A stretch of 64,000 nucleotides of DNA, from NCBI RefSeq assembly GCF_017743735.1, contig NZ_JAGHRO010000009.1, positions 62,001 to 126,000 of the forward strand, given 5' to 3'. Below the pieces are notes generated by a model, which was not told the DNA's origin, ran no database searches, and saw nothing but the letters and a program-made list of their open reading frames with translations. Source of the DNA: Shimia sp. R9_2. GTDB taxonomy: Bacteria > Pseudomonadota > Alphaproteobacteria > Rhodobacterales > Rhodobacteraceae. Made by a program: the position numbers and the translations under genes. This document shows positions 28,101-51,504 of this stretch, one piece after another; positions within the stretch are counted from its first letter, which is position 1; every line of letters begins with the position of its first letter.

Positions 28101-28628
28101 TTCGCCGTTGATGCCGTCACAATCCACATCGCAGAAGACGGTGCCGGAGATCGCGCCGGTTTCGACCTTTTCGCCTGCGCTGAGGCATTTGTAGTCGACC
28201 CAGTTGCTTTTCACGTTGCAGGTTTTGACAACGGTCAGCTCGGTGCCTTCTGGCGGCACTGCGCCGTAGAAGCTGAAATAATCGTCGCCTGCGCCGGGGG
28301 CGTTGTGATCTTCGATTTCGATTTCGATCATGTAGTAGGTCTGGCCATCAGAGCCTTTCAGCACGTGATAGCTTTCCGCATACATCTGACCGCCAACTTT
28401 TTCACCGTCGACATAGGCCTGCTGACCGGAGCGGTCGTTGGCGTGCTCATTGCGGCAGTTGTCGCCGGAGAGGAAGTAATCGTTGTCTTTGGTTGAGAGA
28501 CAGACTGAGGCGCTGTCCGGCATGGTGAATTTATCGCCACAGCCGATGCTGGACCCGTTGCCGCCCTGATCCAGAAGATCGGATTCCTTGAGAGCGGTCC
28601 ATTCATATTCGCGGTAATAGTATGACAC
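25185..28628 (-). CDS. Large secreted RTX protein with SdrD-type B repeats and a carbohydrate-binding-like domain
   Basis: 1147-residue acidic protein with no N-terminal signal peptide and a C-terminal LDIRNFEEVVLI tail, as in type I secretion substrates. Domains in order: a cysteine-containing N-terminal domain (1-155); the start of an SdrD B-type repeat (160-175) interrupted by a CBM6/35-like module (about 180-315, DYTIEAEDMASYGF to YVRIDNIVLEG); the rest of that repeat (325-365); two more SdrD B repeats (about 420-510 and 552-650); RTX nonapeptides (about 697-790, GGAGNDDLNGDG style); a cadherin/Big-9-like domain (about 836-905); and a second RTX block (about 943-1060). The repeats bind calcium outside the cell. 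Likely a surface or biofilm matrix protein; its exporter may be the system at 1-2249. Confidence 0.93.
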   Translation of the reverse strand: MSYYYREYEWTALKESDLLDQGGNGSSIGCGDKFTMPDSASVCLSTKDNDYFLSGDNCRNEHANDRSGQQAYVDGEKVGGQMYAESYHVLKGSDGQTYYMIEIEIEDHNAPGAGDDYFSFYGAVPPEGTELTVVKTCNVKSNWVDYKCLSAGEKVETGAISGTVFCDVDCDGINGEVTVIPGCDYTIEAEDMASYGFKTVEGAQASGGELVKLYCAGGYGELCTTFDGKTGVYDVKIRVQDEKDGQSVIKLKVGGQVVEAVRLDADTDGWGSNDGGFSTYVIKDVAIESGQDVTLKAFGDDYEYVRIDNIVLEGQDQTEVVSEPTKAGVTIKLLDLDGNVVATTQTDADGNYRFDDVPVGDYKIMGVAPDGTEFTIQDAGTDDSIDSDVDENGMSGVVSVTADSETDIDLGVCVKEDPGSLSGRYFCDVDRDDLDNNNGDEPGIQGVLVTLLDANGDPVLDAGGNAITTLTDADGNYQFSDLEPGTYGVKFEDPDAVLVGKELVNPNVGADDTSDSDAIGDTTMSVIENITVVSGEDTGDNDAGVRDTDPMTAELGDTVWLDLFGDGILNDEEFDPFFNGREQGVQGVTVQLLTASGMVLAEQMTDENGNYLFTGLAAGDYKVGFILPEGFAFTAANQGGDDARDSDAVPMSADFAMTQVVTLAEGESNLTLDAGILRCGLIEGTSQADENSPVGGFDLLVGCETDDSIIGFSGEDTLMGNGGNDTLEGGSYDDLLEGGEGEDDLNGGSENDILIGGAGNDDLNGDGEVDTAVFGGNFADADIQIVDIFTGELIITSVDGVDRLRNIEFLQFDDMTVAVEELVPGGTSDQVAAPGAGGSVNIDVLANDIELSEGMLEVAQVNNGGYGTVVLEADGTVTYTAGANFTGYDSFNYTVTNGVGFVRTVEVQVGDVPTLDPADPSTIVLVEPLGENGVSFTGTGLDENILGTRGEDTIEGRGGDDFIEGGRGDDNLRGTAGFDTLLGGEGDDTINADGQADLALGGIGNDALAGQAGADTLFGGDGDDFIRGLQGSDYVSGGAGDDRFLSPNDGADVILGGAGADEFIWSEASDAGERDFLDGESGIDRLEIELDGADAVAVQAEVDAYLALVALNAPAAGSINDGSILTDTFSFTTLDLDIRNFEEVVLI

Positions 28629-29938: not shown

Positions 29939-30832
29939 GTGCCTGCCACCTTGGGGCATATCGGCGCGCAGATGCTGCTCACCCGGATTGGACTGCCGCA
30001 GGCGGACACAAAATGGATTTTGGCAGGATGTGTGATCCCGGATCTGCCATGGATTTTGCAGCGTGTGGTGCGCGCCGTTGGCGATGTACCTGCGATTGAG
30101 CTGCGGCTCTATGTTGTGGCGCAAAGCAGTCTGCTGATGAGCCTGGTGCTCTGCGCCTGTTTGGCGCTGTTCAGCCGGAGAGCGTTGAGCGTTTTCAATG
30201 TATTGGCTTTTGGTGCGCTGCTGCATTTTGCTTTGGATGCGCTGCAGACAAAATGGGCCAACGGTGTGTTGCTTTTTGCGCCTCTGCGTTGGGAGCCGTT
30301 GAATTTCGGGCTGTTCTGGCCGGAGGATTGGCCCACCTATGCGCTTTATGGGCTGAGCCTTGGTGTGGTGTTCTGGATGGTTTTCAGAGATGCGCCCAAT
30401 GGTGACGATTTGCGGCGCCCGAGGGGCGCGCGTGCGCGGGCTGCGGTTGTGCTTTTGGCGGTCTATTTCTGTGCGCCACTCGCGATGGAGAAAGCCGCTT
30501 TTGCGGCCAATGTGCATTCCACCAAGGTACTGGCAGAGTATGGCCAGCGTGCGGGGCGGGAGATTGGCATTGATCGCAACCGGATTGTTTTTGAGAACGG
30601 AGTGCCGCATCTGCGTGTGTGGACCGGCGAGCGCCTTGCGCTGACAAACTCAACGCTGGGCGCAGGCGCGCTTGTCTCTGTCAAAGGAGTGTTTGAAACG
30701 CCCTCAACGTTGCGGGTTGAGGACGTCCATCTGCATGCGTCAGGCGTCCGCGATATCGCTTCTTATGTCAGCCTGCTGGCGATCGCCCTGTGGTGGGGTC
30801 TCTGTATCGCGCGGGCGCGCGGTGCGTTCTGA
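29939..30832 (+). CDS. Putative membrane-bound metal-dependent hydrolase (YdjM/DUF457-like)
   Basis: 297-residue integral membrane protein with about five hydrophobic helices and a GTG start 3 bases after the previous stop. Signs of the YdjM-type family are an early LGHIGAQML His, the DxPW motif (CVIPDLPWILQ) and HFALDALQTK, a His-x-x-x-Asp pair in a membrane helix. A soluble stretch near residues 195-265 (SVKGVFETPSTLRVEDVHLH) may face the periplasm. The last 93 bases overlap the end of the convergent glycosyltransferase gene, an unusually deep tail-to-tail overlap. Function is not known. Confidence 0.62.
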   Translation: MPATLGHIGAQMLLTRIGLPQADTKWILAGCVIPDLPWILQRVVRAVGDVPAIELRLYVVAQSSLLMSLVLCACLALFSRRALSVFNVLAFGALLHFALDALQTKWANGVLLFAPLRWEPLNFGLFWPEDWPTYALYGLSLGVVFWMVFRDAPNGDDLRRPRGARARAAVVLLAVYFCAPLAMEKAAFAANVHSTKVLAEYGQRAGREIGIDRNRIVFENGVPHLRVWTGERLALTNSTLGAGALVSVKGVFETPSTLRVEDVHLHASGVRDIASYVSLLAIALWWGLCIARARGAF

Positions 30833-31834
30833 GGCCGCCTCTTCTGCAGCGGTCGGGCGGCCCCGCAGGACTTGATCGATCTCGTAGCTGCGCAACCTTC
30901 GGCTTGAGGAGAAGATGATGATTTCCCCGACGAGGCCGAGGGCAACGATCTGGATGCCAAGCACCAGCATCAGAACCGCAAACACCAGCGCCGGGCGGTC
31001 CGCGAGGGCCGCGCCAAAGAACAGGCGCTCAATCACCAGATAGGTGGTCAGCAAGGCGCCAACCAAGATCAGGGGCACGCCGACCGAGCCAAAGAACCGC
31101 AGGGGGCGGCGTAGGTATTTCAGGCCGACAAACAGGGTCATCAGATCCACCAGCGCACCGACATGGGCGTGGGGTTTGAATTTGTAGATGTCCTGTTCGT
31201 TGAGGTTCTGCATCACCGTCACATCCACCTCCTTGACCTTATAGCCTTCAGAGGCGGCGATCAGGGGCAGGAAGTGCTGGCGGACGCCCAGTTCAGAGAC
31301 CTTCTGAAACACATCGCGACGACCGGCGCGGGCGCGGCAAAACACATCGCTGAAGCTTTGTTGAAACAGGGCGCGCAGCAGGCCGTGGGTGGCCCATGAG
31401 CGGAACTTCTGGATGCCGTTGCGATCCACCTTGTCGCGTTTGCCCACCACCATATCGGCATCAGAAAGCCCATCGAGCAGCGCATTGATGGAGCCCGGCT
31501 CAATCTCGCGCCACGATGGCAAGGTGAGGACGATATCGCCCACCGCCTGGCCAATGCCGTGTTTGATGGCCGCGTCTTCGCCGGCCCAAGGGCGCTGGCC
31601 GATGGATTTGAGGTTGGGCCAGCTGTCTTGCAGCGCGCTGAGCGCCTGGGTGATGCCGGATGAGGATTGCTCATAGACCACCACCAGTTCGTAAGGCTCG
31701 GGGCGGGCATCAAGCACCGGGCGGAAATCAGACAGCAGCTCTTTCAGCCCTTTGCCATCCCCATCGGCGGTGACAATCACCGTGAGAAGTTCGCTTGCTG
31801 CTTTTGCGTCATGGGTATTTTGACTGTGAATCAT
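30740..31834 (-). CDS. GT2-family glycosyltransferase with C-terminal membrane segments
   Basis: 364-residue glycosyltransferase related to dolichyl-phosphate-mannose synthase-like enzymes. The N-terminal GT-A domain shows LLTVIVTADGDG, YELVVVYEQSSSG and DADMVVGKRDKVDR, but the usual DDGS is replaced (VYEQSSSG), so activity is uncertain. Two membrane helices follow (about residues 250-275 and 285-320), then a charged cytoplasmic tail. The ATG at 31834 has GGAG 6 bases upstream and begins one base after the stop of the next GT2 gene, so both are co-translated. It probably adds or processes a lipid-linked sugar. Confidence 0.85.
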   Translation of the reverse strand: MIHSQNTHDAKAASELLTVIVTADGDGKGLKELLSDFRPVLDARPEPYELVVVYEQSSSGITQALSALQDSWPNLKSIGQRPWAGEDAAIKHGIGQAVGDIVLTLPSWREIEPGSINALLDGLSDADMVVGKRDKVDRNGIQKFRSWATHGLLRALFQQSFSDVFCRARAGRRDVFQKVSELGVRQHFLPLIAASEGYKVKEVDVTVMQNLNEQDIYKFKPHAHVGALVDLMTLFVGLKYLRRPLRFFGSVGVPLILVGALLTTYLVIERLFFGAALADRPALVFAVLMLVLGIQIVALGLVGEIIIFSSSRRLRSYEIDQVLRGRPTAAEEAASERTARPRDTETPPQGDRQQADIRSDIADA

Positions 31835-31835
31835 T

Positions 31836-32789
31836 TTATTCTCCATTCGGCAGCGCGGTCACGGAATGGCCGCCGAGCCAATACAATTTGTCGGGCCCAA
31901 TCTGGCGATGCACCAAGGCACAGACCACGCCGACCAAAAACAAGAAAAGGGACAGAGAGCCGCAGAGCATGGCCACGGATGTAAAGACCATGACGCTGCC
32001 GGTTTCAGCAGCGCCGGGGCCAAAGACGATGGGCCAAGCAAAGAGGCAGGTCAAAAATGCAAAAGTGACGGACAGCCCGGTGAAGCGCCGCATGGGTTTG
32101 CGCGAAAACATCAGCAGGGTTTTGATCGCAATCAGATCAAGCAGCACTTTGAAAATGCGTGACAGGCCATATTTGGACTCGCCAAATTGGCGGGCATGGT
32201 GGCGCACGCCCACCTCAGCAATGCGCGCGCCCACGGGCAATGTCATCGCCGGAATAAAGCGGTGCATATCCGAATAGAGCGGCACCCGCTTGATGGTGTT
32301 GGCGCGGTAGACCTTGAGGGAGCAGCCGTTGTCTTTCACCGGCAGGCCGGTGACCTTGCCGATCAGACGGTTGGCAATCATCGAGGGCAACTTGCGTGAC
32401 AGCCATTTGTCCTGACGGTTGATGCGCCAGCCAATGACCATGTCATAGCCTTCGTCAATCTTGGCCAGCATCATGGGAATGTCTGCGGGATCGTTCTGCA
32501 GATCGCCATCCATGGTGACCAGAACCTCGCCGCGCGCATATTCGATGCCCGCCATCATCGCTGCGGTCTGTCCGTAGTTTTTGCGGAACTTCAGCACCAC
32601 GACACGCGGATCCTCTGCGGAAAGCTCCGAGAGCTTTTCAAAGCTGCTGTCGGTGGATCCGTCGTCAACAAAGATGAGTTCAAAAGACAATTTGGACTCA
32701 TCAAAAACGGTGGCGACTTTCTGATAGAGCAGTCCCACACTTTCTTCCTCGTTCAAAATTGGAACGATGACAGAGTATTTAACGGTCAA
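31836..32789 (-). CDS. GT2-family glycosyltransferase (polyprenyl-phosphate sugar synthase type)
   Basis: 317-residue enzyme with a full DPM1/GtrB-type catalytic core: YSVIVPILNEEESV, FELIFVDDGSTDSS, NYGQTAAMMAGIEYARGE, VTMDGDLQNDP (DxD metal site) and SLKVYRANTIKRVPLY. Two C-terminal membrane helices follow (residues about 230-290). The family moves a hexose from a nucleotide sugar to undecaprenyl phosphate on the cytoplasmic face. I use a TTG start at 32789, because AGGAG lies 7 bases upstream and the core begins two codons later. Any upstream extension crosses an AT-rich promoter-like segment. Confidence 0.9.
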   Translation of the reverse strand: MTVKYSVIVPILNEEESVGLLYQKVATVFDESKLSFELIFVDDGSTDSSFEKLSELSAEDPRVVVLKFRKNYGQTAAMMAGIEYARGEVLVTMDGDLQNDPADIPMMLAKIDEGYDMVIGWRINRQDKWLSRKLPSMIANRLIGKVTGLPVKDNGCSLKVYRANTIKRVPLYSDMHRFIPAMTLPVGARIAEVGVRHHARQFGESKYGLSRIFKVLLDLIAIKTLLMFSRKPMRRFTGLSVTFAFLTCLFAWPIVFGPGAAETGSVMVFTSVAMLCGSLSLFLFLVGVVCALVHRQIGPDKLYWLGGHSVTALPNGE

Positions 32790-38498: not shown

Positions 38499-39989
38499 AT
38501 GACGACGATAGGAGCACAGCGCGGATCTGCGGACGCTCTTGAATTTGACATGTCTGATACTGTGGACATACCGTTGGTCGTTGATTTGGACGGCACGCTG
38601 ACCAAATCAGATACGATGCACGAAGCGCTTTTGCTGTTGATTGCAAAGCAGCCTGCAAAATTGCCTCAGATTGTCTCTTGGCTGTTTGCGGGGAAAGCGC
38701 AGTTCAAAGACAAGCTGGCCGCCGAAATGGTGGTTGATGCCGACAGCGTGCCGCTGCGTGAGGATGTGTTGGCGCAGATTTCTGCGGCCAAAGAGAGTGG
38801 GCGGCAGGTGCTGCTGGTGTCGGCCTCAAACCACAGACAGGTGAGTCTGATCGGGGATCAGCTGGAGCTGTTTGACGAGGCGATTGGCTCGGATGCGCAG
38901 CGCAATCTTGCAGGCAGCGCCAAGGCGCAATGGCTTGTGGATCGGTTTGGCGAGCGGGGCTTTGATTATATCGGGGATTCCAGCGCCGACCTTGAGGTTT
39001 GGCCCAAGGCGCGCAAGGCAATCACCATCGGGGCCAAGCCGGCGGTGCGTGCGCGTGTGGATGCGATGGATGTCGAGGTCACCCATTTGGACAGGAATAG
39101 TGATGAAAGCGCGACGCGCAAAGCGCGCCATTACCTCAAAGCGATGCGGCCGCATCAGTGGCTGAAGAACCTTTTGGTGTTTGTACCTGCGCTGGCCGCG
39201 CATGAGATGTCGATGCTGCTGCCGTCGTTTTTTGCCTTTTGTGCCTTTAGTCTCGCGGCCTCCAGCATCTATTTGATCAATGATATGCTCGACTTGCACG
39301 TGGACCGGCAACACCCGCGCAAATGCAAACGCCCGTTTGCGGCGGGTACCATTCCGGTCGCCCATGGGGTTGTGCATTCGGCGGGGCTGTTTCTGACGGC
39401 GATGGTGATTGCGGCCTTCCTGCCATCGGCCTTTGCATTGGTTCTGGTAGGCTATGTGGCGCTGACCTTTGCCTATTCTCTGGTGCTCAAGCGCAAGCTG
39501 ATGATTGATATCTGGACCCTTGGTGCGCTTTACACGATCCGGATCGTGGCCGGTGGCGCGGCCAGTGGCATCCCGCTGTCTGAGTGGCTTCTGGCGTTCT
39601 CGATGTTTGTCTTCCTTGCGCTGGCTGCGGTGAAGCGGATTTCCGAGCTCAAGGATCTGGAAGCGCGGGATTTGGACAGCACCGATGGGCGCGGATACAG
39701 CGTGGGCGATTTGCCTGTGGTGCTGGGGGCGATGTTGGCTTCCGGCTATTGTTCGGTGGTGATCCTGGCGCTTTATGTCTCCAACTCCAATGTGGCGAGC
39801 CTATACTCGGAACCAAAGCTTCTTTGGTTGGTGTGCATGATGCTGCTTTATTGGATCAATCGCGTGGCCATCATCTCCTATCGCGGAGAGATGGATGACG
39901 ATCCCATTGTTTTTGCTCTCAAAGATAAGGTGAGCCTGATTGTCTTTGCCGCCTGCGGCGCGGTGTTTCTGGCGAGTGCGCAGCTATGA
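38499..39989 (+). CDS. HAD phosphatase-UbiA prenyltransferase fusion (DPPR synthase-like)
   Basis: 496-residue two-domain membrane enzyme. Residues about 24-195 are a HAD hydrolase: nucleophile motif VVDLDGTLT (Asp29, Asp31), VLLVSASNHR as motif II and FDYIGDSSADLEVW as motif IV. Residues about 205-496 form a UbiA prenyltransferase: LKAMRPHQWLKNLLVFVP, the metal motif NDMLDLHVD (261-269) and KRISELKDLEARD. This UbiA subgroup includes decaprenyl-phosphate phosphoribosyltransferase, which joins PRPP to decaprenyl phosphate. The HAD half could then remove the 5-phosphate. It overlaps gtrA by 4 bases. The ATG at 38499 lacks a good ribosome site, so the true start could be ATG 38550. Confidence 0.87.
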   Translation: MTTIGAQRGSADALEFDMSDTVDIPLVVDLDGTLTKSDTMHEALLLLIAKQPAKLPQIVSWLFAGKAQFKDKLAAEMVVDADSVPLREDVLAQISAAKESGRQVLLVSASNHRQVSLIGDQLELFDEAIGSDAQRNLAGSAKAQWLVDRFGERGFDYIGDSSADLEVWPKARKAITIGAKPAVRARVDAMDVEVTHLDRNSDESATRKARHYLKAMRPHQWLKNLLVFVPALAAHEMSMLLPSFFAFCAFSLAASSIYLINDMLDLHVDRQHPRKCKRPFAAGTIPVAHGVVHSAGLFLTAMVIAAFLPSAFALVLVGYVALTFAYSLVLKRKLMIDIWTLGALYTIRIVAGGAASGIPLSEWLLAFSMFVFLALAAVKRISELKDLEARDLDSTDGRGYSVGDLPVVLGAMLASGYCSVVILALYVSNSNVASLYSEPKLLWLVCMMLLYWINRVAIISYRGEMDDDPIVFALKDKVSLIVFAACGAVFLASAQL

Positions 39990-40405
39990 CACTGACGCAA
40001 CTTGTCACCCGCTACAGCGCGTTTGCGGTGGTGGCGACCATCGCGAACCTGCTGACGCAGCGCTTGTCCCTGGCGCTATATGAAGGCAGTTTTGGGGTTC
40101 CGCTGGCGATTTTTGTCGGCACGGTTGTGGGGCTGGTGGTGAAGTTTCACCTCGACAAGCGCTGGATCTTTTTTGATGTCTCCAAGGAGGCGCAGAGCCG
40201 GAAATTTGGCCTCTACACCCTGATGGGGGTGATCACGACGGTGATTTTCTGGGGCTCGGAGTATGGGTTCTGGCTGGTCTGGCAGACCGATTTGATGCGC
40301 GAAGTGGGCGCTGTGCTGGGTTTGAGCATCGGCTATTTCTGCAAGTATCATCTGGACAAGCGGTTTGTGTTTACCCCTGCGGCTGGCGTTGGGGGGCATG
40401 CATGA
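39986..40405 (+). CDS. GtrA-family membrane protein
   Basis: 139-residue protein with four membrane helices in the GtrA pattern: RYSAFAVVATIANLLTQRL, GTVVGLVVKFHLDKRWIF, YTLMGVITTVIFWG and a last YFCKYHLDKRFVF. The repeated FHLDKR/YHLDKR after helices 2 and 4 is a GtrA feature. GtrA proteins are proposed to flip or anchor polyprenyl-phosphate sugars. It is flanked by 4-base overlaps with both neighbours. In mycobacteria a GtrA protein lies in the same place, directly before dprE1. Confidence 0.9.
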   Translation: MTLTQLVTRYSAFAVVATIANLLTQRLSLALYEGSFGVPLAIFVGTVVGLVVKFHLDKRWIFFDVSKEAQSRKFGLYTLMGVITTVIFWGSEYGFWLVWQTDLMREVGAVLGLSIGYFCKYHLDKRFVFTPAAGVGGHA

Positions 40406-41748
40406 TCAAGACGCAGACGCTCTCAGGCTGGGGACGCTGGCCGCAGCGCAAGTGCGCGACGGCGCCGCTTGATCCGGCAGGGTTTGACGCGCTGCCAGTG
40501 GCTGCGGGCAAGGGCATGATCGCGCGCGGCTTTGGCCGCTCTTATGGCGATATTGCCATGAACCCGGACCTCACATTGCTGGGCACAGCGCGCAATCGGA
40601 TCCTGTCTTTTGATGAAGACACCGGCACGCTTGTGGCCGAAGCGGGCTTGAGCCTCACCGAAATTCTGGACGTGTTTGTACCGCGCGGCTGGTTTCCTGC
40701 GGTGACGCCGGGGACAAAATTTGTCTCGCTGGCGGGGCTGATCGCGGTGGATGCGCACGGCAAGAACCACCACAAGGTGGGCAGCTTTGGCGATCACGTT
40801 CTGTGGTTTGATCTTTATTGCGCGGACGGGCAGATCCGACGCTGTTCGCCTGAGGAGAACACCGCGCTGTTTCATGCCACGATTGGCGGCAATGGCTTGA
40901 CGGGGCATATCCTGACGGTGTGCACCAAGCTGCTGTCGATCCCTTCGGGTTGGGTGCGGCAGACCACCCATGTGGCGGAAAACCTCGCTGACGCGATTGA
41001 GATTTTTGAGACCCACAACGATGTGACCTATTCTGTGGCCTGGATCGACTGTTTGGCCAAAGGTGCGCATCGCGGGCGCTCGCTGGTGTTTCTGGGAGAG
41101 CATGCCGCGCCTGAGGAATTGGCTGCGGCCCAGCGGGATCTGCCATTTGATATTCCCTTGCGCAAGAAGCAACGGATGCCGATGGATGCGCCCTCCTGGG
41201 CGCTGAACACCTACACCATTCGTGCCTTCAACCGGCTCTATCACAAGAAGAATTCTCAAAATCTCGCACCGCAGCTCGTTGACTATGACCGGTATTTCTA
41301 TCCGCTGGATGCGATCCTTGAGTGGAACCGGCTTTATGGGCGCGGCGGGTTTGCGCAGTATCAATGTGCGCTGCCGCTGGCGGAGTCTGAGGCCGGGCTG
41401 ACCAAGCTGTTGACCGCGATTTCCGATGCGGGGCTTGGCTCTTTCCTTGCAGTGCTGAAACGCTTTGGCCCCGGCGCGCCGCAGCGGCCTCTGTCGTTTC
41501 CGATGGAAGGCTACACGCTGGCGCTTGATTTCCAGCTGTCGCCGCGCGCGCTGACCCTGATGACCGCGCTTGATGAGATTACAACGGACCATGGCGGGCG
41601 TCTTTACATGGCGAAGGACAGCCGCATGAGCCAGCCGATGCTTGAGGCAGGATATGCCGAGGGCTTGCCTGCGTTTCGTGACCTGCGCGCCCAATCCGGT
41701 GCGCGCGGGCTATTTCAATCTATGCAATCCCAGAGGCTGAACCTGTGA
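40402..41748 (+). CDS. dprE1: DprE1-like FAD oxidase (decaprenyl-phosphoryl-ribose 2'-epimerase subunit)
   Basis: 448-residue flavoenzyme of the VAO/ALO family. It carries the FAD region ARGFGRSYGDIAM, TPGTKFVSLAGLIAVDAHGKNHH (conserved in DprE1), FAQYQCALP with the substrate Gln pair, and LYMAKDSR with the catalytic Lys405. DprE1 oxidises decaprenyl-phosphoryl-beta-D-ribose at C2 to the keto form. Where Mycobacterium tuberculosis DprE1 has Cys387 (target of benzothiazinones) this protein has Ala375 (GYTLALDF). It overlaps gtrA and the DprE2-like gene by 4 bases each, so the four genes are translationally coupled. The lipid substrate here is inferred. Confidence 0.9.
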   Translation: MIKTQTLSGWGRWPQRKCATAPLDPAGFDALPVAAGKGMIARGFGRSYGDIAMNPDLTLLGTARNRILSFDEDTGTLVAEAGLSLTEILDVFVPRGWFPAVTPGTKFVSLAGLIAVDAHGKNHHKVGSFGDHVLWFDLYCADGQIRRCSPEENTALFHATIGGNGLTGHILTVCTKLLSIPSGWVRQTTHVAENLADAIEIFETHNDVTYSVAWIDCLAKGAHRGRSLVFLGEHAAPEELAAAQRDLPFDIPLRKKQRMPMDAPSWALNTYTIRAFNRLYHKKNSQNLAPQLVDYDRYFYPLDAILEWNRLYGRGGFAQYQCALPLAESEAGLTKLLTAISDAGLGSFLAVLKRFGPGAPQRPLSFPMEGYTLALDFQLSPRALTLMTALDEITTDHGGRLYMAKDSRMSQPMLEAGYAEGLPAFRDLRAQSGARGLFQSMQSQRLNL

Positions 41749-42488
41749 CACCTGCCGACACTCCCGCATTGATCCTTGGTGCCCGGTCCGGCATCGCCCG
41801 TGGCATTGCCGTCGCGCTGGCCAAGCGTGGGCATCCCATTATGCTGGCCGCGCGCAATGCGCAGCGGCTGGAGGCGGATGTCTCCGATATCTCTATCCGG
41901 CACAGCGTGGAGGTGTCCGCGCATGATTTTGATGTGCTGGATGTGGCGGGGCATCAGAGCTTTCTTGAAAGCCTGCCGATGAAGCCGGGCATCGTGGTCT
42001 GCGCCATCGGTGTTCTGGGCGACCAGGAGGCGGATGCGGGGGACAGCGCGGCGACCAAGCTGATTGTTGAGAGCAATTTCCTCGCGCCATGCCTGTTTCT
42101 GGAGCGGGTGGCGACGCAGATGTCCGCTTCAGGGCGGGGCGGGCATATTGTTGGCATAGGCTCTGTTGCCGGTGATCGCGGGCGCGCCAAAAACTACGTC
42201 TATGGCTCCGCCAAGGCGGGGTTTGCGGCCTATCTTTCCGGCCTGCGGCAGAAATATGCGGCCAGCGCGCTGCATGTGATGACGGTGAAGCCGGGCTTTG
42301 TGCGCACCGCGATGACGGAGGGGATGGATCTGCCCGGACCGCTGACCACCGACGCAGAGCCGTTTGCCGAGCGCGTCGTGGCGGCGATGGAGAAGGGCAA
42401 GCTTGTCTATTACGACATGCGGTGGCGTGCGCTGATGGGCGTGATCACGCATCTGCCCGAACGTATTTTTATGAAGACCAAATTTTGA
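41745..42488 (+). CDS. dprE2: DprE2-like short-chain dehydrogenase
   Basis: 247-residue SDR with a GTG start overlapping the DprE1 stop. The cofactor motif is LILGARSGIARGIAVALAKRG (two runs), the active site is VYGSAKAGFAAY with Tyr-x-x-x-Lys, and MTVKPGFVRTAMTEGM is the family's C-terminal mark. DprE2 reduces the DprE1 product to decaprenyl-phosphoryl-arabinose using NADH. Adjacency and overlap with the DprE1-like gene make this identity much likelier than a generic SDR. The end, LPERIFMKTKF, is a basic tail as in mycobacterial DprE2. Confidence 0.88.
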   Translation: MTPADTPALILGARSGIARGIAVALAKRGHPIMLAARNAQRLEADVSDISIRHSVEVSAHDFDVLDVAGHQSFLESLPMKPGIVVCAIGVLGDQEADAGDSAATKLIVESNFLAPCLFLERVATQMSASGRGGHIVGIGSVAGDRGRAKNYVYGSAKAGFAAYLSGLRQKYAASALHVMTVKPGFVRTAMTEGMDLPGPLTTDAEPFAERVVAAMEKGKLVYYDMRWRALMGVITHLPERIFMKTKF

Positions 42489-42504
42489 AGAGATCGGACG
42501 GCAA

Positions 42505-44139
42505 ATGGATCAGCCACATAAATTCCAAGATTTTATACTGGCCCTCGGGCTGACCTGCATCGGGGCGGCGCTGGCGTGGTTTCTGTCTGGCGGTCTGCCG
42601 TTCATTGGCATTGATGATGCTGCGATCACCCGATCCTATGCTGAAAACGTCGCCAATGGGGCGGGGTATGTTTACAATGTGGGCGGCGAAAAGGTCGAAG
42701 GTTCCACCGCGTTTCTGTGGATGAGCATTCTGACGGTGGCCTACAGTCTGACGCCCACGCCGGAGTTTCTGATCATCGGATTATGTGCGCTGTTTGCACT
42801 TGGCGCGGTCTATATCACCCTGCGTCTGGTGCGGGCGCTGACCGATTGGCTGGACGTGCCAACCGGACCGGCGCTGTGGACCATGGCGCTGTTCCTGATG
42901 GCCAGCCCGGGGTATTTCATGTGGTCGGTCTGGACCATGATGGAGCTGGCGCTGTGGTCGATGATGGTGATCTGGCTGGTGTTTCTGCTGGCCAAGCGGG
43001 TGGAGGACGATTTTGGCCCCAGCAACGGGCTGGCGCTGGTTCTGGCAGCCGCATTGATGCCCTTGGTGCGCCCTGAAGGTATTTTGGTGGCAGTGGGGCT
43101 GATCTGTTTGAGCTTTCTGCTCTCGCTGCGGTCCTGGCGCGTTCTGGGGCTGTCTGTCCTCGCGGCGGGCGGCTCTTTTGTGGCGGTCACCTTTTTCCGG
43201 CTGAGCTATTTTGGCCAGCCGTTTCCCAACACCTTTTATGCCAAGGTTTCCTCTGATCGGTTGCAGGGGCTGGCGGACGGGATGAAATATCTCTTTGATT
43301 TCCTGCTGCGCAGCCCGTTCACGGATATTTTGGTGATGATCTGGCTGGGGCTGACCTTTTGGGCGCTGTTTGAGGCGCGGCACAGCCGCCCCGGCACGCG
43401 CGCGCTGATCGTTGCGGCTGCGGCCATATTTGGCCTGCTGATGACCTATGCGGCGCTTGGTGGCGATCACTTTGTGCTCTGGCGGTTCTATCAGCCGGTG
43501 GCCCCGTTGCTGCCTGTTGCGCTGGCGCTTCTGGTTGCTTTGGGGGCTGGGATGCCCTCTACAACCCTCGGTGCGGCGAAGGTGGCCGGCGCGGTTGCTG
43601 CGCTCGGCATCATGCTGATTGGGTGGGGGCAATACTACCAATCACGCTTTGATATCCGCAAAGAATATGTGCTGGTGGAGCAGGGGCTCGATTTTGGTGC
43701 GTTCCTCAACGAGGTGGAACCGCGCCCCTCAATTGGCGTGGGTCCGGCGGGCGGCATTGCGCTGGCGTATGACGGGCACATCTATGATCTGCTTGGGCTG
43801 AACTGGGTTGAGATGGCGCATGCCAATCCCGTGAAGATCGGGATGCGCAACCACGCGAGTTTTGACAAGCCGACATTCTGGAAGCACCAACCGGACGTGC
43901 TTGCCGCCTTCAACCGGGCCTGCACAAAAGATCAGGGGCTGGCGTTCTGGTCACATGCGGACAGCGCCTTTGACGGGCTGTATTCGGATGCGGATTTTCA
44001 GGCTGCCTATGTGCCGGTTGCCTTTCGAAACACAACCCAATGTTGGCCAAGTTTCGCGCGGCACGAATGGTTGGCAAAAGCGACCCCAAGTGATGCGATC
44101 CTGGTCTATGATTGGGCAGATGTGATCAAACTGGACTGA
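42505..44139 (+). CDS. GT-C membrane glycosyltransferase, possible arabinofuranosyltransferase
   Basis: 544-residue integral membrane protein with about ten helices and a C-terminal periplasmic tail (420-544). The first periplasmic loop has IDDAAITRSYAENVANGAGYV and VEGSTAFLW. Paired acidic residues (DD) after helix 1 and the VEG-x-T-x-x-LW motif resemble mycobacterial AftB-type arabinofuranosyltransferases, which use decaprenyl-phosphoryl-arabinose. It starts 17 bases after the DprE2-like gene. It would transfer the sugar on the outer face of the inner membrane. The acceptor is unknown. A general PMT-type identity remains possible. Confidence 0.78.
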   Translation: MDQPHKFQDFILALGLTCIGAALAWFLSGGLPFIGIDDAAITRSYAENVANGAGYVYNVGGEKVEGSTAFLWMSILTVAYSLTPTPEFLIIGLCALFALGAVYITLRLVRALTDWLDVPTGPALWTMALFLMASPGYFMWSVWTMMELALWSMMVIWLVFLLAKRVEDDFGPSNGLALVLAAALMPLVRPEGILVAVGLICLSFLLSLRSWRVLGLSVLAAGGSFVAVTFFRLSYFGQPFPNTFYAKVSSDRLQGLADGMKYLFDFLLRSPFTDILVMIWLGLTFWALFEARHSRPGTRALIVAAAAIFGLLMTYAALGGDHFVLWRFYQPVAPLLPVALALLVALGAGMPSTTLGAAKVAGAVAALGIMLIGWGQYYQSRFDIRKEYVLVEQGLDFGAFLNEVEPRPSIGVGPAGGIALAYDGHIYDLLGLNWVEMAHANPVKIGMRNHASFDKPTFWKHQPDVLAAFNRACTKDQGLAFWSHADSAFDGLYSDADFQAAYVPVAFRNTTQCWPSFARHEWLAKATPSDAILVYDWADVIKLD

Positions 44140-44145
44140 TCCGCC

Positions 44146-45603
44146 ATGGGCTCTGAAAACGGCAACTCCGGCCATTCCACCAAGGGATTTTTTGTCAACG
44201 TCGGCTCCCTTGTGTCTGCGCGCCTGTTTCTGGCGTTGTCGCAGATTTTGGTTTTGCCGGTGGTGGCGCGTTATCTCACGGTGGATGAGTTTGCCCTGAT
44301 TGCCATGGCGATGTCGCTGATCGTCTTTTGCAGCGTTTTGAGCGATGCGGGGCTTGGGCGGTCGTTGATCCGGACGCCGGAGTATGACCATGACGAATGG
44401 GTCAGTGTGTTCTGGCTGCTTGTGATGGTGGGGGGCGGTTTGATGGCTGTCATCCTGCTGGCCGCGCCGCTTTGGGCGTCATTCTTTGCGCAGCCGGAGC
44501 TGGTGAAGATCATTGCGGCGCTGTCGGTGGTGCCTCTGATGCAGGCCATTGCCGCCACGCCCAACGCGGAGATCGAGCGGCGGGAAAATTACACAGGCAT
44601 TGCCAAGGTACAGACCATCACAACGGTGTTCAGCCTTGGCGCGGTTGTGATACTTGCGGTGCTCGGCGCCGGTGTCTGGGCGCTTGTCGCGCAACAGCTG
44701 GCGCTGGCCGGGGTCAGATTGGCCGGTATTCTGTACCTGTCCGAGTTTCGCCCCACGCGGGTATTCCGCCCCGCTCTGGTGAGGCCACACCTTGAGTTTG
44801 CCCGAAATGCTTTGATTGTGTCGGCCATTTCAGCCGTAAAAGCGCAGTCTGCGGTGATGAGCATCGGGAAGTTCAACGGGGAGGCGGCCTTGGGTCTGTT
44901 TTCCATGAGCGCCCGATTTTCCAAGTTGCCGCAGTTTGGCCTCGTCGGGCCAGCGTCCACGATTGTTTATGTCCGCATGGCGAAGGCTCAGCATGATCCC
45001 AAGCGGCTGGTCGACATCTATCTCAGCGCGATGAACCTGATGGCGACGGTTCTGTTTCCCATCCTGGCCGTGACAGCGGCTGCGGGGACGGCGGTGTTCA
45101 CCGTGGCGCTCTCAGATGATTGGGCGCAGGTTGCACCGATTTTTGCCTTTTCGATTGCGGGGCTGACATTTGAGGCGATTGCGGTGGTTTTGCTGTCCTG
45201 CATTTTCCGGGCTACCAATCGCACCGACTTGCATGTGCGCCTTATGACGGAATCCGCGGTTCTCTATACGGTTATGGTACTCTGCGCCGCTGCATTTTCT
45301 GATGTGCTCGGCGTGGCGACGGTGATCACGGTCTGGGGGCTGGTCATTGTGCCGCGTGGTTGGATTTTGGCGCAGAAAATCGTGCCGATCAGCCTGGCAG
45401 ATTGCGTCAATGCGATCGCTGCACCGCTTTTGCTTTCTGTGGGTTTGGTCTGCGCCCATATCGGGCTGCGGACACTCTGGGAGCCGGGTCATGTTGTGGA
45501 AATTCTATTGGCCGGAGGGCTGCTTGTGGTGGGGCTTGGCGGCACCATTTTGATGCGCCGTGAGACACTTCTGGAAGCGGTTGGGACGTTCAAACAGGCC
45601 TGA
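44146..45603 (+). CDS. Polysaccharide flippase (Wzx/MOP family)
   Basis: 485-residue protein with about 13-14 membrane helices. The N-terminus GFFVNVGSLVSARLFLALSQ and the repeated helix-loop pattern (LGLFSMSARFSKLPQFGLVGPAST) fit WzxC/lipopolysaccharide flippases. It begins 7 bases after the GT-C gene, so it belongs to the same operon. It probably moves a lipid-linked repeat unit across the inner membrane. No Wzy-type polymerase is certain in the window, although the next GT-C-like gene may serve. Confidence 0.88.
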   Translation: MGSENGNSGHSTKGFFVNVGSLVSARLFLALSQILVLPVVARYLTVDEFALIAMAMSLIVFCSVLSDAGLGRSLIRTPEYDHDEWVSVFWLLVMVGGGLMAVILLAAPLWASFFAQPELVKIIAALSVVPLMQAIAATPNAEIERRENYTGIAKVQTITTVFSLGAVVILAVLGAGVWALVAQQLALAGVRLAGILYLSEFRPTRVFRPALVRPHLEFARNALIVSAISAVKAQSAVMSIGKFNGEAALGLFSMSARFSKLPQFGLVGPASTIVYVRMAKAQHDPKRLVDIYLSAMNLMATVLFPILAVTAAAGTAVFTVALSDDWAQVAPIFAFSIAGLTFEAIAVVLLSCIFRATNRTDLHVRLMTESAVLYTVMVLCAAAFSDVLGVATVITVWGLVIVPRGWILAQKIVPISLADCVNAIAAPLLLSVGLVCAHIGLRTLWEPGHVVEILLAGGLLVVGLGGTILMRRETLLEAVGTFKQA

Positions 45604-46101: not shown

Positions 46102-47847
46102 GTGTTTGGAAGTTTAGAAGAAAATACTGCGCTGCCCGGTCGGGATGACACCAAATCGCACCTGCTGCGACTTCTGGGAATTGGCCTGATTTCGTTTGTG
46201 ATGGCGATGCTCACCCGGGTGGGGCTGATCAACCATCCTCTGATCTATGATGAGCTTTATCAGTATTTGCCCTCGGTGAGTTGGCAGGAAAATCAGACCT
46301 TCACGGTGCTTGATGGGATCTATGACCGTGCCGCCCGGTTCTCGCAGTTTATTGCCTTCAGTTTTGACGTGATTGGCGAGCAATCGGCCTTTTCGGCGCG
46401 GCTGATCCCCTCGGTGATCCCGGGCGCGCTGTTGGTGGCGCTGATTGTGTCTTGGGCCTACCACGTCAGCGGGCGTGTCGCGGCATTGATTGCGCTGTGC
46501 TTTCTGCTGTTTTGGCCCAACGGCATCGAGGTGTCTCAGTATATCCGGTTCTACTCCGCCCAAGGGGTGCTTTTTGTGGCGGGCGCGTTGCTGGTTTACA
46601 TCGCGTTGACCGAGATCACTTCTGTGATCTGGCGCGCGGCGGCGTTGGTTGCTGCGGCCATTGCGTTCCTTGTGGCGCTGGATTTGCAGATGCTGACCGC
46701 GCTTGGCGTCGGGGCGATCCTGCTGTGGGTGCTGGTGGTTTTTATGCCCGGTTGGCTGCGACGCTACCCCATGCTTTGGTGGCTCAATGGTGCCATTGTG
46801 CTTGGCCTGGCGATCTTCTTTCTCAGCGGTGTGGCGTCGGAGGAAATCAACTGGCTATGGACCACTTACAACTGGGAACCTTGGCCGCATGTGGATGATA
46901 CGACGTTTTATCACCGCAATTTCCGCGACAATTATCCGACCTTCTGGACGCTGTTTCCGGTGATTGCGATCATTGCGCTGCGGGCCAATTTTATGCCGGC
47001 CTCGTTTTGTCTGGCGCTTTTTGTCACCACCTTTCTGCTGCAGTCGTTTGGCGGTCTGAAAAACATCCGCTACCTCTATCCAACGATGCCGTTTTTCTTT
47101 GTTTTGTGGGGCATTGGCTTGCAGGCGGTGCTGCCGGTCTTTTGGCGTTTCCTGAAGACCAGCGCGACGGAGGCGTCGGGCAATTTTGTGCCATCAGTGC
47201 TGAAAAAGCCTCTGGCATTTGCGGTTTTGGGGATCAGCGCAGGCTTTTTGATCTTTGCCAATCCTGCCCTGCCGCGCAGCGCCAAGCTGATCCTGGGCCA
47301 AGATGAGAACATGCTGCTGGGTAAGACGCGCTGGCAGTGGGAGGGCGCGGAGGCGTTTTTGACACCCTGGCTGGCGGACAATCCTTTGATTGTCACCGAC
47401 GAGGAGATGCGGGCTGTGGAATGGCTGGGGGACTTTGACCTCGCTTACAACAAACCCAGGTTCTCCGAGCTGCTTTACAGTGTGAGCCCTGACGCGCCGC
47501 CTTTCTCGGTAGATCGGCGCACCGGACGGCCGTTGATTGGAGACTATGCTGATTTCCGTCTGGTGGTGTTTTGCCATCCTGTCGGGGTTTTTGTCACAAA
47601 CGAGGCGGGCGCGCGCAATGGCAATATCCTGCGTCTGCTGCAGGAGGCGCGGAGCGCGGATTTGAGTGTGTCGCTGCAGACCGGCCGGGGCATGGCGATG
47701 GTTGGTTGGCGGCACAAAGCGCATATGGAGCTGCCGGAAGACTGTCGAAAGGTTCCGAATTTTGGTGATCCGTCTGCGGCCGGTCGTATTCTGTCTGGTG
47801 AATCCGTGCCGTGGAGTGTCGCGTCGTCCACAGTTCGGACACATTGA
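46102..47847 (+). CDS. GT-C-type (PMT-like) membrane glycosyltransferase
   Basis: 581-residue protein with about ten helices in the first 390 residues and a soluble C-terminal part. The first loop carries HPLIYDELYQYLPSVSW, with the Asp-Glu typical of dolichyl-phosphate-mannose-type (PMT, ArnT) enzymes, and WPNGIEVSQYIRFYSAQG later. It likely transfers a sugar from a polyprenyl-phosphate donor in the periplasm. The GTG start follows AAGGAAG by 7 bases. The C-terminal region (from about residue 425) has FRLVVFCHPVGVFVTNEAG, an unrecognised domain. Confidence 0.8.
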   Translation: MFGSLEENTALPGRDDTKSHLLRLLGIGLISFVMAMLTRVGLINHPLIYDELYQYLPSVSWQENQTFTVLDGIYDRAARFSQFIAFSFDVIGEQSAFSARLIPSVIPGALLVALIVSWAYHVSGRVAALIALCFLLFWPNGIEVSQYIRFYSAQGVLFVAGALLVYIALTEITSVIWRAAALVAAAIAFLVALDLQMLTALGVGAILLWVLVVFMPGWLRRYPMLWWLNGAIVLGLAIFFLSGVASEEINWLWTTYNWEPWPHVDDTTFYHRNFRDNYPTFWTLFPVIAIIALRANFMPASFCLALFVTTFLLQSFGGLKNIRYLYPTMPFFFVLWGIGLQAVLPVFWRFLKTSATEASGNFVPSVLKKPLAFAVLGISAGFLIFANPALPRSAKLILGQDENMLLGKTRWQWEGAEAFLTPWLADNPLIVTDEEMRAVEWLGDFDLAYNKPRFSELLYSVSPDAPPFSVDRRTGRPLIGDYADFRLVVFCHPVGVFVTNEAGARNGNILRLLQEARSADLSVSLQTGRGMAMVGWRHKAHMELPEDCRKVPNFGDPSAAGRILSGESVPWSVASSTVRTH

Positions 47848-49296: not shown

Positions 49297-51504
49297 ATGA
49301 ATAGAGTTCTTTCACCTGATAGAAAGTTGGAGATGCGTCTGCCCAAAGCTGCGACATCTGCTCCGAAAATGCTGGAATTTTCCGATGTTATTCGCGCGCT
49401 GCGGCATCGGATCGCGCTTGTGCTTGCCACAGGCGTGCTTTGTTTGGGGGGCGCGGTTTACTACCTGTCGTCCATCACGCCGACCTATAGTTCCGGCGGC
49501 CAGCTTTTGTTGGGTGGGCAGGGGCTCAGTGAACAGAACTCGTTTGATCTTGTGGAAGCTCAGGTGCTCAGCAATGCGGTGATCGAGGGGGAGATCGCGA
49601 TTATGCGGTCCAATGAAATCCTCATCAACGTGGTGCAGAAGCTCAATCTGGACGAAGATCCTGAATTCAATCCGAGTTTGCGTGAAAAGCAGGTGCCCAA
49701 TCCGGTGGTGTCCTGGCTCAAGGATACAGCCAAAACCATTCTGGGCCGAGGCGAGAGCGCAGCGGATGATGAGGTGGTTGTTGTTGAAACAGCCTCCAAT
49801 ACAGCGGTTTTGGAGGCGGCCTCTCTGAACGAGCAGACCCTTGGTGAGTATGGCACCTCGGTCGGGATTTTGCGCAAGGGTCTGTCCATTCGCCAGCAGG
49901 GCACATCGTTCCTGATGGCGGTTCAGGCCACGTCGGAGAGCCCACAAAAGGCGGCGGCGATTTCCAACACGGTTATGACGGAATATATACGCGTGCTAGC
50001 GGATAAACGTTTCCAGACGGCAAGCCGTTTCACCGGCTGGCTGGAGGGTCGGGTTGAGGAGCTTGCGAGCAACCTTGAAGAATCCGAGCGTGCCGTTTTG
50101 GAGCTGCGCAGCGTCATGGAGGCGGATGCTGACAATGGTGCCCGTCTGGATCAGCAGATGCAGGAGTTCACCACCAAGCTGGTGAACGCGCGGGCGGAGC
50201 TGGCGCAGGCAGAGGCGCAGGTGCGTCGGGCGACGCTGGTGAATGAGCAGGATGGCCCGCTGGCGACCGCGAATATTCTTTCCAATGATGCGATTTTTGA
50301 GTTCCGTCGGGCGCTGGTGGATCTGCGCCGCGAAGAGGCAGAGGCCTCACTGAGCTTTTCAGATGAGTCCGCGCGGATGGACTCGATCCGCCGCGCGATT
50401 TCCAAAACCGAAGCGGAGCTGGCCAATGAGGTTGAAAACCTGATTTTGCAGCTCAACAACCGTGTGGAGACACTTCGGCTCAACGTGCGCACGTTGGAGA
50501 CCAGCCTGCGCAGCTTTGAAGGATTGAACCTTGAGCGGTCACGCCAGTTGATCGAGATGAACCAGTTGCAGCGTGTGGCGGACATCAACCGCCGTGTGTA
50601 TGAGGATTTCCTGGGGCGGTATCGCGAAATCAGTGAGTTTCAGGAAATTCCGATCTCTGATGCGAAGATCATTCGCTATGCCTCACCACCCAGCAGCCCG
50701 TCTCACCCACGCAAGAAAGTGGCGGCGATTCTGGCGCTGGTTGGAGGGCTTTCGCTGGGGGCGGCTTTGGCCTTCATGCTGGAGTGGCGGCCCAGACGGC
50801 TCTCTGAGCCGAGGCAGGTGTCGCGTGCAACCGGATTGCCGGTGTTTGGCAACACACCCCGTTTGAAGAAGATCCGCTCGGCTGAGAAGCTGCTTGCACA
50901 GCTTTCCAATGATGAGGCCTTTGCGCAGGCGGCGCTGAAACTGGCGGACAACATCAATCTGCACAGTGAACGATCGCTGAGGTCTCTTTTTGTGACCTCC
51001 TATGATGCCAATCAGAGTCGGACCAATACGGCGATCTTGCTGGCCTGGGCCAATGCGCAGCGCGGCCGGAAATGTGTGCTGGTCGACGGAGATTTCCGCA
51101 CCGCACAGCTGACAGATAGTTTTGGTCTGAATGAACAGGCTAATTTCTTGTCCGCCATCCATAGCGACAAGCCTTTGAGTGAATGTCTGGTGGTAACGGA
51201 TACGACGGATGGATTTGACTGTATCGGCGCGGAAGTATCGGCGGCGGATCCCTCTGTGCTCTACAGCTCTGAGCGGATGCAGGACATGATTGCCCTGCTG
51301 CGCAAGGTTTATGATGTGGTCATCATTGACGCGCCAAGTCTGGAGGACAGCTCCAACAGCTTTGCCGGTTTGAATTCGCGTGATCTGGGGATTTTCACCA
51401 TCGAGACCAATAAGATGACGCGTGATGGCATGAACCGCAGCCTGAACATGTTGAGAGATATGGATCTGGGCGGCGCGGGCATTGTCCTGAATGGGGCCAA
51501 GTGA
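49297..51504 (+). CDS. Wzz/Wzc-like polysaccharide chain-length protein with degenerate ATPase domain
   Basis: 735-residue protein in the BY-kinase layout. An N-terminal Wzz domain has membrane helices near residues 38-60 and 470-490, with a long periplasmic coiled coil between (about 240-440) and PSSPSHPRKKVA before the second helix. A cytoplasmic ATPase-like domain starts near residue 540. Walker A should read G-x-x-x-x-GKST, but residues 569-578 read YDANQSRTNT, so the P-loop Lys is missing. Walker A' VLVDGDF (594-600) is kept. The C-terminus has no tyrosine cluster. It may set chain length and act as a structural partner rather than a kinase. Confidence 0.9.
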   Translation: MNRVLSPDRKLEMRLPKAATSAPKMLEFSDVIRALRHRIALVLATGVLCLGGAVYYLSSITPTYSSGGQLLLGGQGLSEQNSFDLVEAQVLSNAVIEGEIAIMRSNEILINVVQKLNLDEDPEFNPSLREKQVPNPVVSWLKDTAKTILGRGESAADDEVVVVETASNTAVLEAASLNEQTLGEYGTSVGILRKGLSIRQQGTSFLMAVQATSESPQKAAAISNTVMTEYIRVLADKRFQTASRFTGWLEGRVEELASNLEESERAVLELRSVMEADADNGARLDQQMQEFTTKLVNARAELAQAEAQVRRATLVNEQDGPLATANILSNDAIFEFRRALVDLRREEAEASLSFSDESARMDSIRRAISKTEAELANEVENLILQLNNRVETLRLNVRTLETSLRSFEGLNLERSRQLIEMNQLQRVADINRRVYEDFLGRYREISEFQEIPISDAKIIRYASPPSSPSHPRKKVAAILALVGGLSLGAALAFMLEWRPRRLSEPRQVSRATGLPVFGNTPRLKKIRSAEKLLAQLSNDEAFAQAALKLADNINLHSERSLRSLFVTSYDANQSRTNTAILLAWANAQRGRKCVLVDGDFRTAQLTDSFGLNEQANFLSAIHSDKPLSECLVVTDTTDGFDCIGAEVSAADPSVLYSSERMQDMIALLRKVYDVVIIDAPSLEDSSNSFAGLNSRDLGIFTIETNKMTRDGMNRSLNMLRDMDLGGAGIVLNGAK

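Follow-up and report, generated by a model that had tools for sequence, protein, structure and literature searches.

A predicted polyprenyl-phosphoryl-D-arabinofuranose donor system with an AftB-type glycosyltransferase in the alphaproteobacterium Shimia sp. R9_2

The pathway that makes polyprenyl-phosphoryl-D-arabinofuranose is already known in Gram-negative bacteria, namely from Azorhizobium Nod factors, Pseudomonas pilin and the 'three-component' systems described in 2024. In Azorhizobium, noeC, noeH and noeO are the proposed makers of the D-arabinose precursor for Nod factors (PMC2443382). For the three-component systems, DprE1 and DprE2 homologs are predicted where arabinofuranose (Araf) is made, and a Citrobacter fusion of a HAD phosphatase with a UbiA transferase was shown to make and dephosphorylate polyprenyl-phosphate-5-phosphoribose (Kelly et al. 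2024, PMC11127046). This survey is reported to give no beta-linking example other than mycobacterial AftB itself, a retaining enzyme (PMC12041299). Here, we analyzed a stretch of 64,000 nucleotides from Shimia sp. R9_2 (contig NZ_JAGHRO010000009.1, positions 62,001 to 126,000; hereafter the window, to which all positions refer), whose host draft genome measures 4.47 Mb. A block of five genes in this window (38499–44139) is predicted from its sequence to form a self-contained polyprenyl-phosphoryl-D-arabinofuranose donor system with AftB-type transfer, a reading to which we assign a probability of roughly 0.82, the acceptor and the anomer not being counted. Compared with the known pathway, the new part is the AftB-type glycosyltransferase of the GT-C class.

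All five open reading frames lie on the + strand. They encode a HAD-UbiA fusion (38499–39989), a GtrA-type small membrane protein (39986–40405), a DprE1-like flavin adenine dinucleotide (FAD) oxidase (40402–41748), a DprE2-like short-chain dehydrogenase/reductase (SDR; 41745–42488) and the GT-C (42505–44139). Genes 1 to 4 are joined by 4-base overlaps (39986–39989, 40402–40405 and 41745–41748), and gene 5 starts 16 bases past the end of gene 4. An initial annotation, made from the letters of the window alone, had described five adjacent genes of which the first four overlap, and this layout is exact in the sequence. The families it named for genes 1 to 4 were recovered, except that gene 1 encodes a HAD-UbiA fusion and not a plain UbiA transferase.

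Protein 5 matches no Pfam or NCBIfam model, and searches of the PDB with its single sequence or a 6-sequence profile returned no match. When profiles of 18 and 58 family sequences were used (matches listed up to E 10), AftB (9dlf) was the sole significant PDB chain, with E-values of 2e-35 and 2e-24 and matches spanning positions 12–510 of 535 and 9–384 of 557, respectively. The AftB-like reading given in the initial annotation thus finds its support in the two larger profiles, the single sequence and the smaller profile being insufficient for it. An AlphaFold2 (AF2) model of the protein reached a predicted local distance difference test score (pLDDT) of 95.2; Foldseek ranked AftB first, VIA-align did not discriminate between AftB and the remaining GT-C enzymes, and identity to AftB was 17–18% in the structural alignments of both programs. 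The reported AftB donor-site residues D62, T91, E172, R221, T274 and R372 (PMC12041299) were mapped by hand to D38, T68, E147, R189, T243 and R327. Five of these assignments agree in both profile alignments, and R372 meets R327 in the 18-sequence alignment only, the 58-sequence one being one residue off. Across the 58 family rows, D38, R189, T243 and R327 are kept without exception, whereas S replaces T68 in 13 rows and D replaces E147 in 18, the other 45 and 40 rows keeping T and E, respectively. On these grounds, the protein is predicted to act in the periplasm as an arabinofuranosyltransferase using a polyprenyl-phosphoryl-Araf donor. Among the matches listed for open-licence PMC articles, we found no paper on AftB outside mycolata, which is not a claim of absence from print.

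Protein 1 combines a HAD phosphatase (residues ~25–200; PF12710) with a UbiA domain (~210–490; PF01040) and matches NCBIfam PRK08238 at 607 bits (cut-off 351). Its start at 38499 was preferred to one at 38550 because the homolog at one related locus (L120) aligns from residue 1. The top PDB match is decaprenyl-phosphate phosphoribosyltransferase 8j8j (E 3.5e-32), and the two entries of this enzyme are the only strong PDB relatives. Equivalents of the Mg/phosphoribosyl pyrophosphate (PRPP)-binding residues K28, N73, D77 and K143 of Rv3806c (PMC10994848) are kept in 63/63 aligned proteins, as placed by hand on a PDB alignment that covers chain residues 17–198, with Lys208 beyond that stretch. 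The ribose-contact Gln135 is not kept: it is Thr323 in protein 1, and 61 of the 63 rows have T, S or N. The HAD residues D29, D31, S108, K142, D160 and D164 are all present, and the HAD part is aligned in 45 of 62 collected homologs. We therefore regard protein 1 as a predicted bifunctional polyprenyl-phosphate 5-phosphoribosyltransferase and 5'-phosphatase; since its fused architecture is that of the Citrobacter enzyme, the window should be able to do without an Rv3807c-like phosphatase.

The GtrA protein (NF037976 at 170 bits, cut-off 50; PF04138 also above cut-off) is a predicted flippase, or accessory protein, for the lipid-linked pentose. For protein 3, which carries an FAD_binding_4 domain and would catalyze 2'-oxidation of polyprenyl-phosphoryl-ribose, nine DprE1 sequences lead the PDB list (E 1.3e-73 to 1.2e-65), followed by the next family at 6e-6. 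We name it DprE1-like because the DprE1 model NF053785, although matched over positions 2–449 of 449, scores 379.6 bits and stays under its curated cut-off of 500. The active-site columns, corresponding to Y60, H132, Q336, K367 and K418 in M. tuberculosis numbering, are invariant in all 81 rows (80 unique sequences of 95 homologs plus the window protein). The position equivalent to Cys387, the mycobacterial cysteine attacked by benzothiazinones, is Ala in 80 rows, including Ala374 of the window, and Thr in one. The host genome holds a single full DprE1 match; three weaker partial model matches look like other FAD oxidases. Protein 4, the candidate for the 2'-keto reduction to arabinose, has DprE2 (21gq_C) as its top PDB match (E 1e-24; next 7e-15) and the SDR motif YxxxK at residues 153–157. 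The DprE2 model NF053786 gives 161.4 bits, under its cut-off of 250, and the generic SDR model PRK07102 gives 270.8, above 267. As both proteins score below the curated cut-offs of their own NCBIfam models, automatic naming by NCBI does not extend to these homologs. The initial annotation had allowed that the two might cluster with unrelated oxidases and SDRs; their best PDB matches are DprE1 and DprE2, and for protein 3 an unrelated-oxidase identity is rejected, DprE1 being the best match by far.

In the pathway that we propose, the UbiA half of protein 1 would use PRPP to load 5-phosphoribose onto polyprenyl phosphate (presumably undecaprenyl phosphate), and the fused HAD half would take off the 5'-phosphate. 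DprE1 (FAD) would oxidize C2' and DprE2 (NAD(P)H) would reduce it, converting ribose to arabinose, and GtrA would help the lipid-sugar over the membrane. In the periplasm, the AftB-type GT-C, with Asp38 as the putative catalytic residue and Arg189 and Arg327 binding phosphate, would then pass D-Araf on to the polysaccharide that the Wzx/Wzz locus around the block makes, where the sugar would most likely be terminal or part of a side chain. Like its homolog AftB, which is retaining (PMC12041299), the GT-C would be expected to give beta-D-Araf by a retaining transfer, and we lean, with some reserve, towards a beta rather than an alpha linkage. What the analysis itself shows is homology, gene order, residue conservation, a predicted fold and co-occurrence; the lipid carrier, the acceptor, the role of the flippase and the anomeric configuration are points that we infer. 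That the strain would make such a donor and place Araf on a surface glycan, as the initial annotation proposed, is the reading best supported by the PDB matches, the conservation of most key residues and the AftB donor-site residues.

To place the GT-C in a wider context, its relatives were collected in a similarity scan based on close relatives, which yielded 525 confirmed stretches; the best 79 loci were kept by similarity alone, and many of the contigs stop early. Within the flank examined, DprE1 occurs in 16/79 of these loci, a UbiA match in 21/79 and UbiA, DprE1 and DprE2 together in 13/79, with two of the 21 UbiA matches (L184 and L187; no DprE1, 28–34% identity) possibly being other UbiA proteins. 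UbiA, DprE1, GT-C and DprE2 lie on one strand in two Bacteroidota loci (L151, L161), as do UbiA, DprE1 and GT-C in two of Planctomycetota (L177, L189); in such loci of these two phyla, the GT-C and the cassette sit in an apparent operon. In two further loci of Bacteroidota (L148, L159) and two of Verrucomicrobiota (L158, L163), the cassette is close by on the strand opposite to the GT-C. Three loci (L121, L124 and L136) show the order UbiA-GtrA-GT-C. This order links the GT-C directly with the synthase of the lipid-pentose, as DprE1 is encoded elsewhere in these three genomes. The nearest named relatives of the GT-C among the best 79 of 525 are those of Ruegeria sp. 2205SS24-7 (72%) and Leisingera aquimarina (69%). 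In the laboratory strain L. aquimarina DSM 24565, HAD-UbiA, a GtrA match, the GT-C and Wzx occur at one locus, and DprE1 is found at another place in the genome. A plasmid of Salipiger sp. CCB-MM3 carries two AftB-like GT-C paralogs ~2 kb apart (L073:8827–10428 and 12254–13942), one close to the window GT-C and the other distant. Contigs of a Williamsia sp. metagenome-assembled genome with GT-C or DprE1 (L185, G436:C147) hold Bacteroidota-like genes, look like contamination and were not used as a bridge to mycobacteria.

At the level of whole genomes, DprE1 (E 1e-40) was found in 44 of 48 genomes chosen for their GT-C, two of the matches (G482, G489) being partial or weak. These 48 derive from 50 of the best 79 loci, with two loci in one genome and the genome of L161 left out, and some of them also belong to our family and class samples; the four genomes without DprE1 are those of L133, L143, L155 and L168. 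Background frequencies were 31/289 in the class sample and 51/149 in the family sample (own genome in both), and 27/198 in the class of a Chitinophagaceae genome. Counting the Shimia genome, 7/10 GT-C genomes of the class sample have DprE1; without it, the ratio is 6/9 versus 24/279 of the others (Fisher p 5e-5), and the three GT-C genomes lacking DprE1 are of one genus. The Chitinophagaceae class sample, seed excluded, gave 6/9 versus 20/188 (p 2e-4; both p values are optimistic, as related genomes are not independent). In the family sample, all six GT-C genomes have DprE1, own genome counted. AftB-like GT-C genes therefore go with DprE1 far outside mycobacteria. We hold it to be an even bet that the AftB-type GT-C is no mycobacterial peculiarity but represents a widespread family of retaining D-arabinofuranosyltransferases, which acts alongside DprE1 and DprE2 in Pseudomonadota, Bacteroidota, Planctomycetota, Verrucomicrobiota and others, and that enzyme and cassette together make up a second class of periplasmic pentofuranose modification, one with beta linkages. 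No DprE1 match at E 1e-40 was obtained for the only other sampled genome of the genus (G170), which makes the block look accessory.

Cassettes with a type A DprE1 (47–62% identity to the window protein) usually show the run HAD-UbiA, GtrA, DprE1, DprE2. Besides the window, these four occur together in 11 of 12 family type A loci (L043 is without GtrA), GtrA adjoins the UbiA fusion in 11/12, and the order UbiA-GtrA-DprE1-DprE2 was found again on three named plasmids, so that the arrangement is no mere coincidence. In type B (~36–43%; L051–L070, 20 rows, Rhodobacteraceae), DprE1-DprE2 is adjoined by HAD-UbiA on the opposite strand in 14/20 loci. Genes of the loci were called by codon usage, which gave no calls for L224 and L225 and doubtful ones for L222. 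One type B locus (L053:8037–17320) has an LPG_synthase_TM gene just upstream of the cassette and topoisomerase, CoA-transferase and Flp/Tad pilus genes, including RcpC and secretin, nearby; the type B group might arabinosylate pilin or lipid.

A maximum-likelihood tree of DprE1 (81 rows, midpoint root) places type B on one side of a branch (99/98) and the window protein in a 26-row all-alphaproteobacterial set (100/98), which comprises every type A row, the Sinorhizobium alkalisoli DprE1 and four further rows from alphaproteobacteria. The rows nearest to the window protein are Ruegeria sp. 2205SS24-7 (76%) and an uncultured Sulfitobacter; around it come Roseobacteraceae first, then rhizobial and other alphaproteobacterial sequences. 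Together with the nearest named GT-C relatives, these rows mark the host as an alphaproteobacterium of roseobacter type. The label 'mycobacteria-like' given to the block in the initial annotation needs adjusting in view of this placement and of the 51/149 family genomes with DprE1, as the cassette is not specially mycobacterial. Direct horizontal gain from mycobacteria is not supported by the placement, in a tree without a trustworthy actinobacterial reference.

The gene directly after the GT-C, in the window as in relatives such as L120, L121, L123, L124, L126 and L128, encodes a Wzx/MOP-type oligosaccharide flippase (44146–45603, + strand; PF13440 180 bits). Further along the + strand lies a second, ArnT-like GT-C (46102–47847), which has no Pfam or NCBIfam match and for which a PDB search with a 9-row profile found nothing; with its AF2 model (pLDDT 81), Foldseek gave ArnT as best match (E 7e-10) and AftB at 2e-2. 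An ArnC/GtrB-like GT2 on the − strand (31836–32789; GT2 domain, PRK10714 183 bits, below the cut-off of 529) likely makes another polyprenyl-phosphate-sugar and probably forms with the ArnT-like GT-C a second lipid-sugar pair for a different sugar. This enzyme and a similar one at 30740–31846 may supply the donor of the ArnT-like GT-C. A Wzz-type exopolysaccharide co-polymerase/BY-kinase is encoded at 49297–51504 (+ strand; PF02706 above cut-off, TIGR01005 157 bits, below cut-off), and GT2, acyltransferase, sulfotransferase and oxidoreductase genes are also among the neighbors. With these genes around the block, an exopolysaccharide is the most likely acceptor. The gene at 25185–28628, which adjoins the polysaccharide locus, encodes a protein of 1147 aa bearing SdrD_B, cadherin-like and RTX repeats, a relative of which occurs in L050.

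The arabinose might go to another acceptor, such as a lipid, a pilin or the lipopolysaccharide core, which would change our reading in this one point. The acceptor is pilin in Pseudomonas paraeruginosa (PMC12369383) and the Nod factor in Azorhizobium (PMC2443382), and at the one type B locus described above, the related DprE1 has Flp/Tad pilus genes as neighbors. However, the neighbors in the window are those of a polysaccharide locus and the GT-C lies beside Wzx in several relatives, so that we consider a different acceptor unlikely.

The same donor could instead be used by the ArnT-like GT-C, leaving the AftB-like protein to transfer something else. This GT-C belongs to the same cluster, recurs in the relatives L037 and L038 and in 9/295 family genomes, and GT136, a known pentofuranosyl GT-C, is closest to ArnT (PMC11127046). 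Yet it is the AftB-like protein that carries the AftB donor-site residues, directly adjoins UbiA-GtrA in L121, L124 and L136 and tracks DprE1 across phyla, whereas for the ArnT-like protein the ArnC-like GT2 is a candidate source of a separate donor, and AftB is a distant fold match; we regard this route as very improbable. A loosely specific GT-C might also deliver ribofuranose or another pentofuranose, with DprE1 and DprE2 working only in part or on a different substrate: GT136 can use donors of ribose and xylose (PMC11127046), and DprE1 and DprE2 are absent beside the GT-C in L121, L124 and L136. These three genomes do have DprE1 elsewhere, however, and in the window the DprE1 and DprE2 genes are bound to UbiA-GtrA by 4-base overlaps and the active-site residues are invariant; we see little chance for a sugar other than arabinose.

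D-Arabinofuranose is uncommon; in mycobacteria, the enzymes that make and transfer it are under study as drug targets. If AftB-type transferases and DprE1/DprE2 are common in environmental bacteria, these could serve as harmless models for the retaining GT-C chemistry of AftB and might allow beta-D-Araf glycans to be made by glycoengineering; more speculatively, they might bear on the reason for which some environmental and gut bacteria have D-arabinan-degrading enzymes. Our reading also proposes functions for genes annotated in plasmid records as 'FAD-binding oxidoreductase', 'UbiA family prenyltransferase' or 'hypothetical protein'.

Compared with the mycobacterial pathway (Rv3806c, DprE1, DprE2, Rv3789 and AftB), the proteins are homologous and most key residues are the same; by contrast, the phosphatase Rv3807c is replaced by the fused HAD, Cys387 of DprE1 by Ala and Gln135 of Rv3806c by Thr, and the acceptor is presumably an exopolysaccharide and the carrier presumably undecaprenyl phosphate. 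The initial annotation had equated the gene order with gtrA-dprE1-dprE2-arabinosyltransferase of M. tuberculosis, a likeness that is partly misleading, since the transferase there is AftA, whereas the one here is of AftB type. AftB of M. chubuense (9dlf/9dlh), a member of family GT89, shares the GT-C fold, the DD motif and the six donor-site residues with the window GT-C; the latter comes from a Gram-negative, and its spacing before R327 is one residue longer. The Azorhizobium genes noeCHOP for Nod-factor D-arabinose, also invoked in the initial annotation, count among the closest known systems. In Sinorhizobium alkalisoli, a Sesbania nodule isolate, a plasmid cassette (NZ_CP034911.1; L079:8425–13265) has the same UbiA-GtrA-DprE1-DprE2 order and a DprE1 of the same 26-row set. 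Unlike the window, it stands upstream of nodABCSU and continues with a 401-aa hypothetical protein instead of an AftB-type GT-C, and its UbiA match to the window protein begins after residue 60, the HAD part being missing or shortened; it is likely a locus for Nod factor arabinosylation. The pilin system of P. paraeruginosa (PSPA7_6245–6251, TfpW) is described as drawing its donor from homologous enzymes and uses a GT-C transferase, but its acceptor is type IV pilin and its products are alpha-1,5 oligomers (PMC12369383, PMC11127046). With the three-component system of Citrobacter youngae O1/O2, the locus has in common an N-terminal HAD-UbiA polyprenyl-phosphoribose synthase, a flippase and a periplasmic GT-C; there, the flippase is of the MATE family and the transferase is the alpha-linking GT136 (PMC11127046), whereas the window offers GtrA as candidate within the block and a neighboring Wzx-like flippase, together with a GT-C bearing AftB-type residues, from which a beta linkage would be expected.

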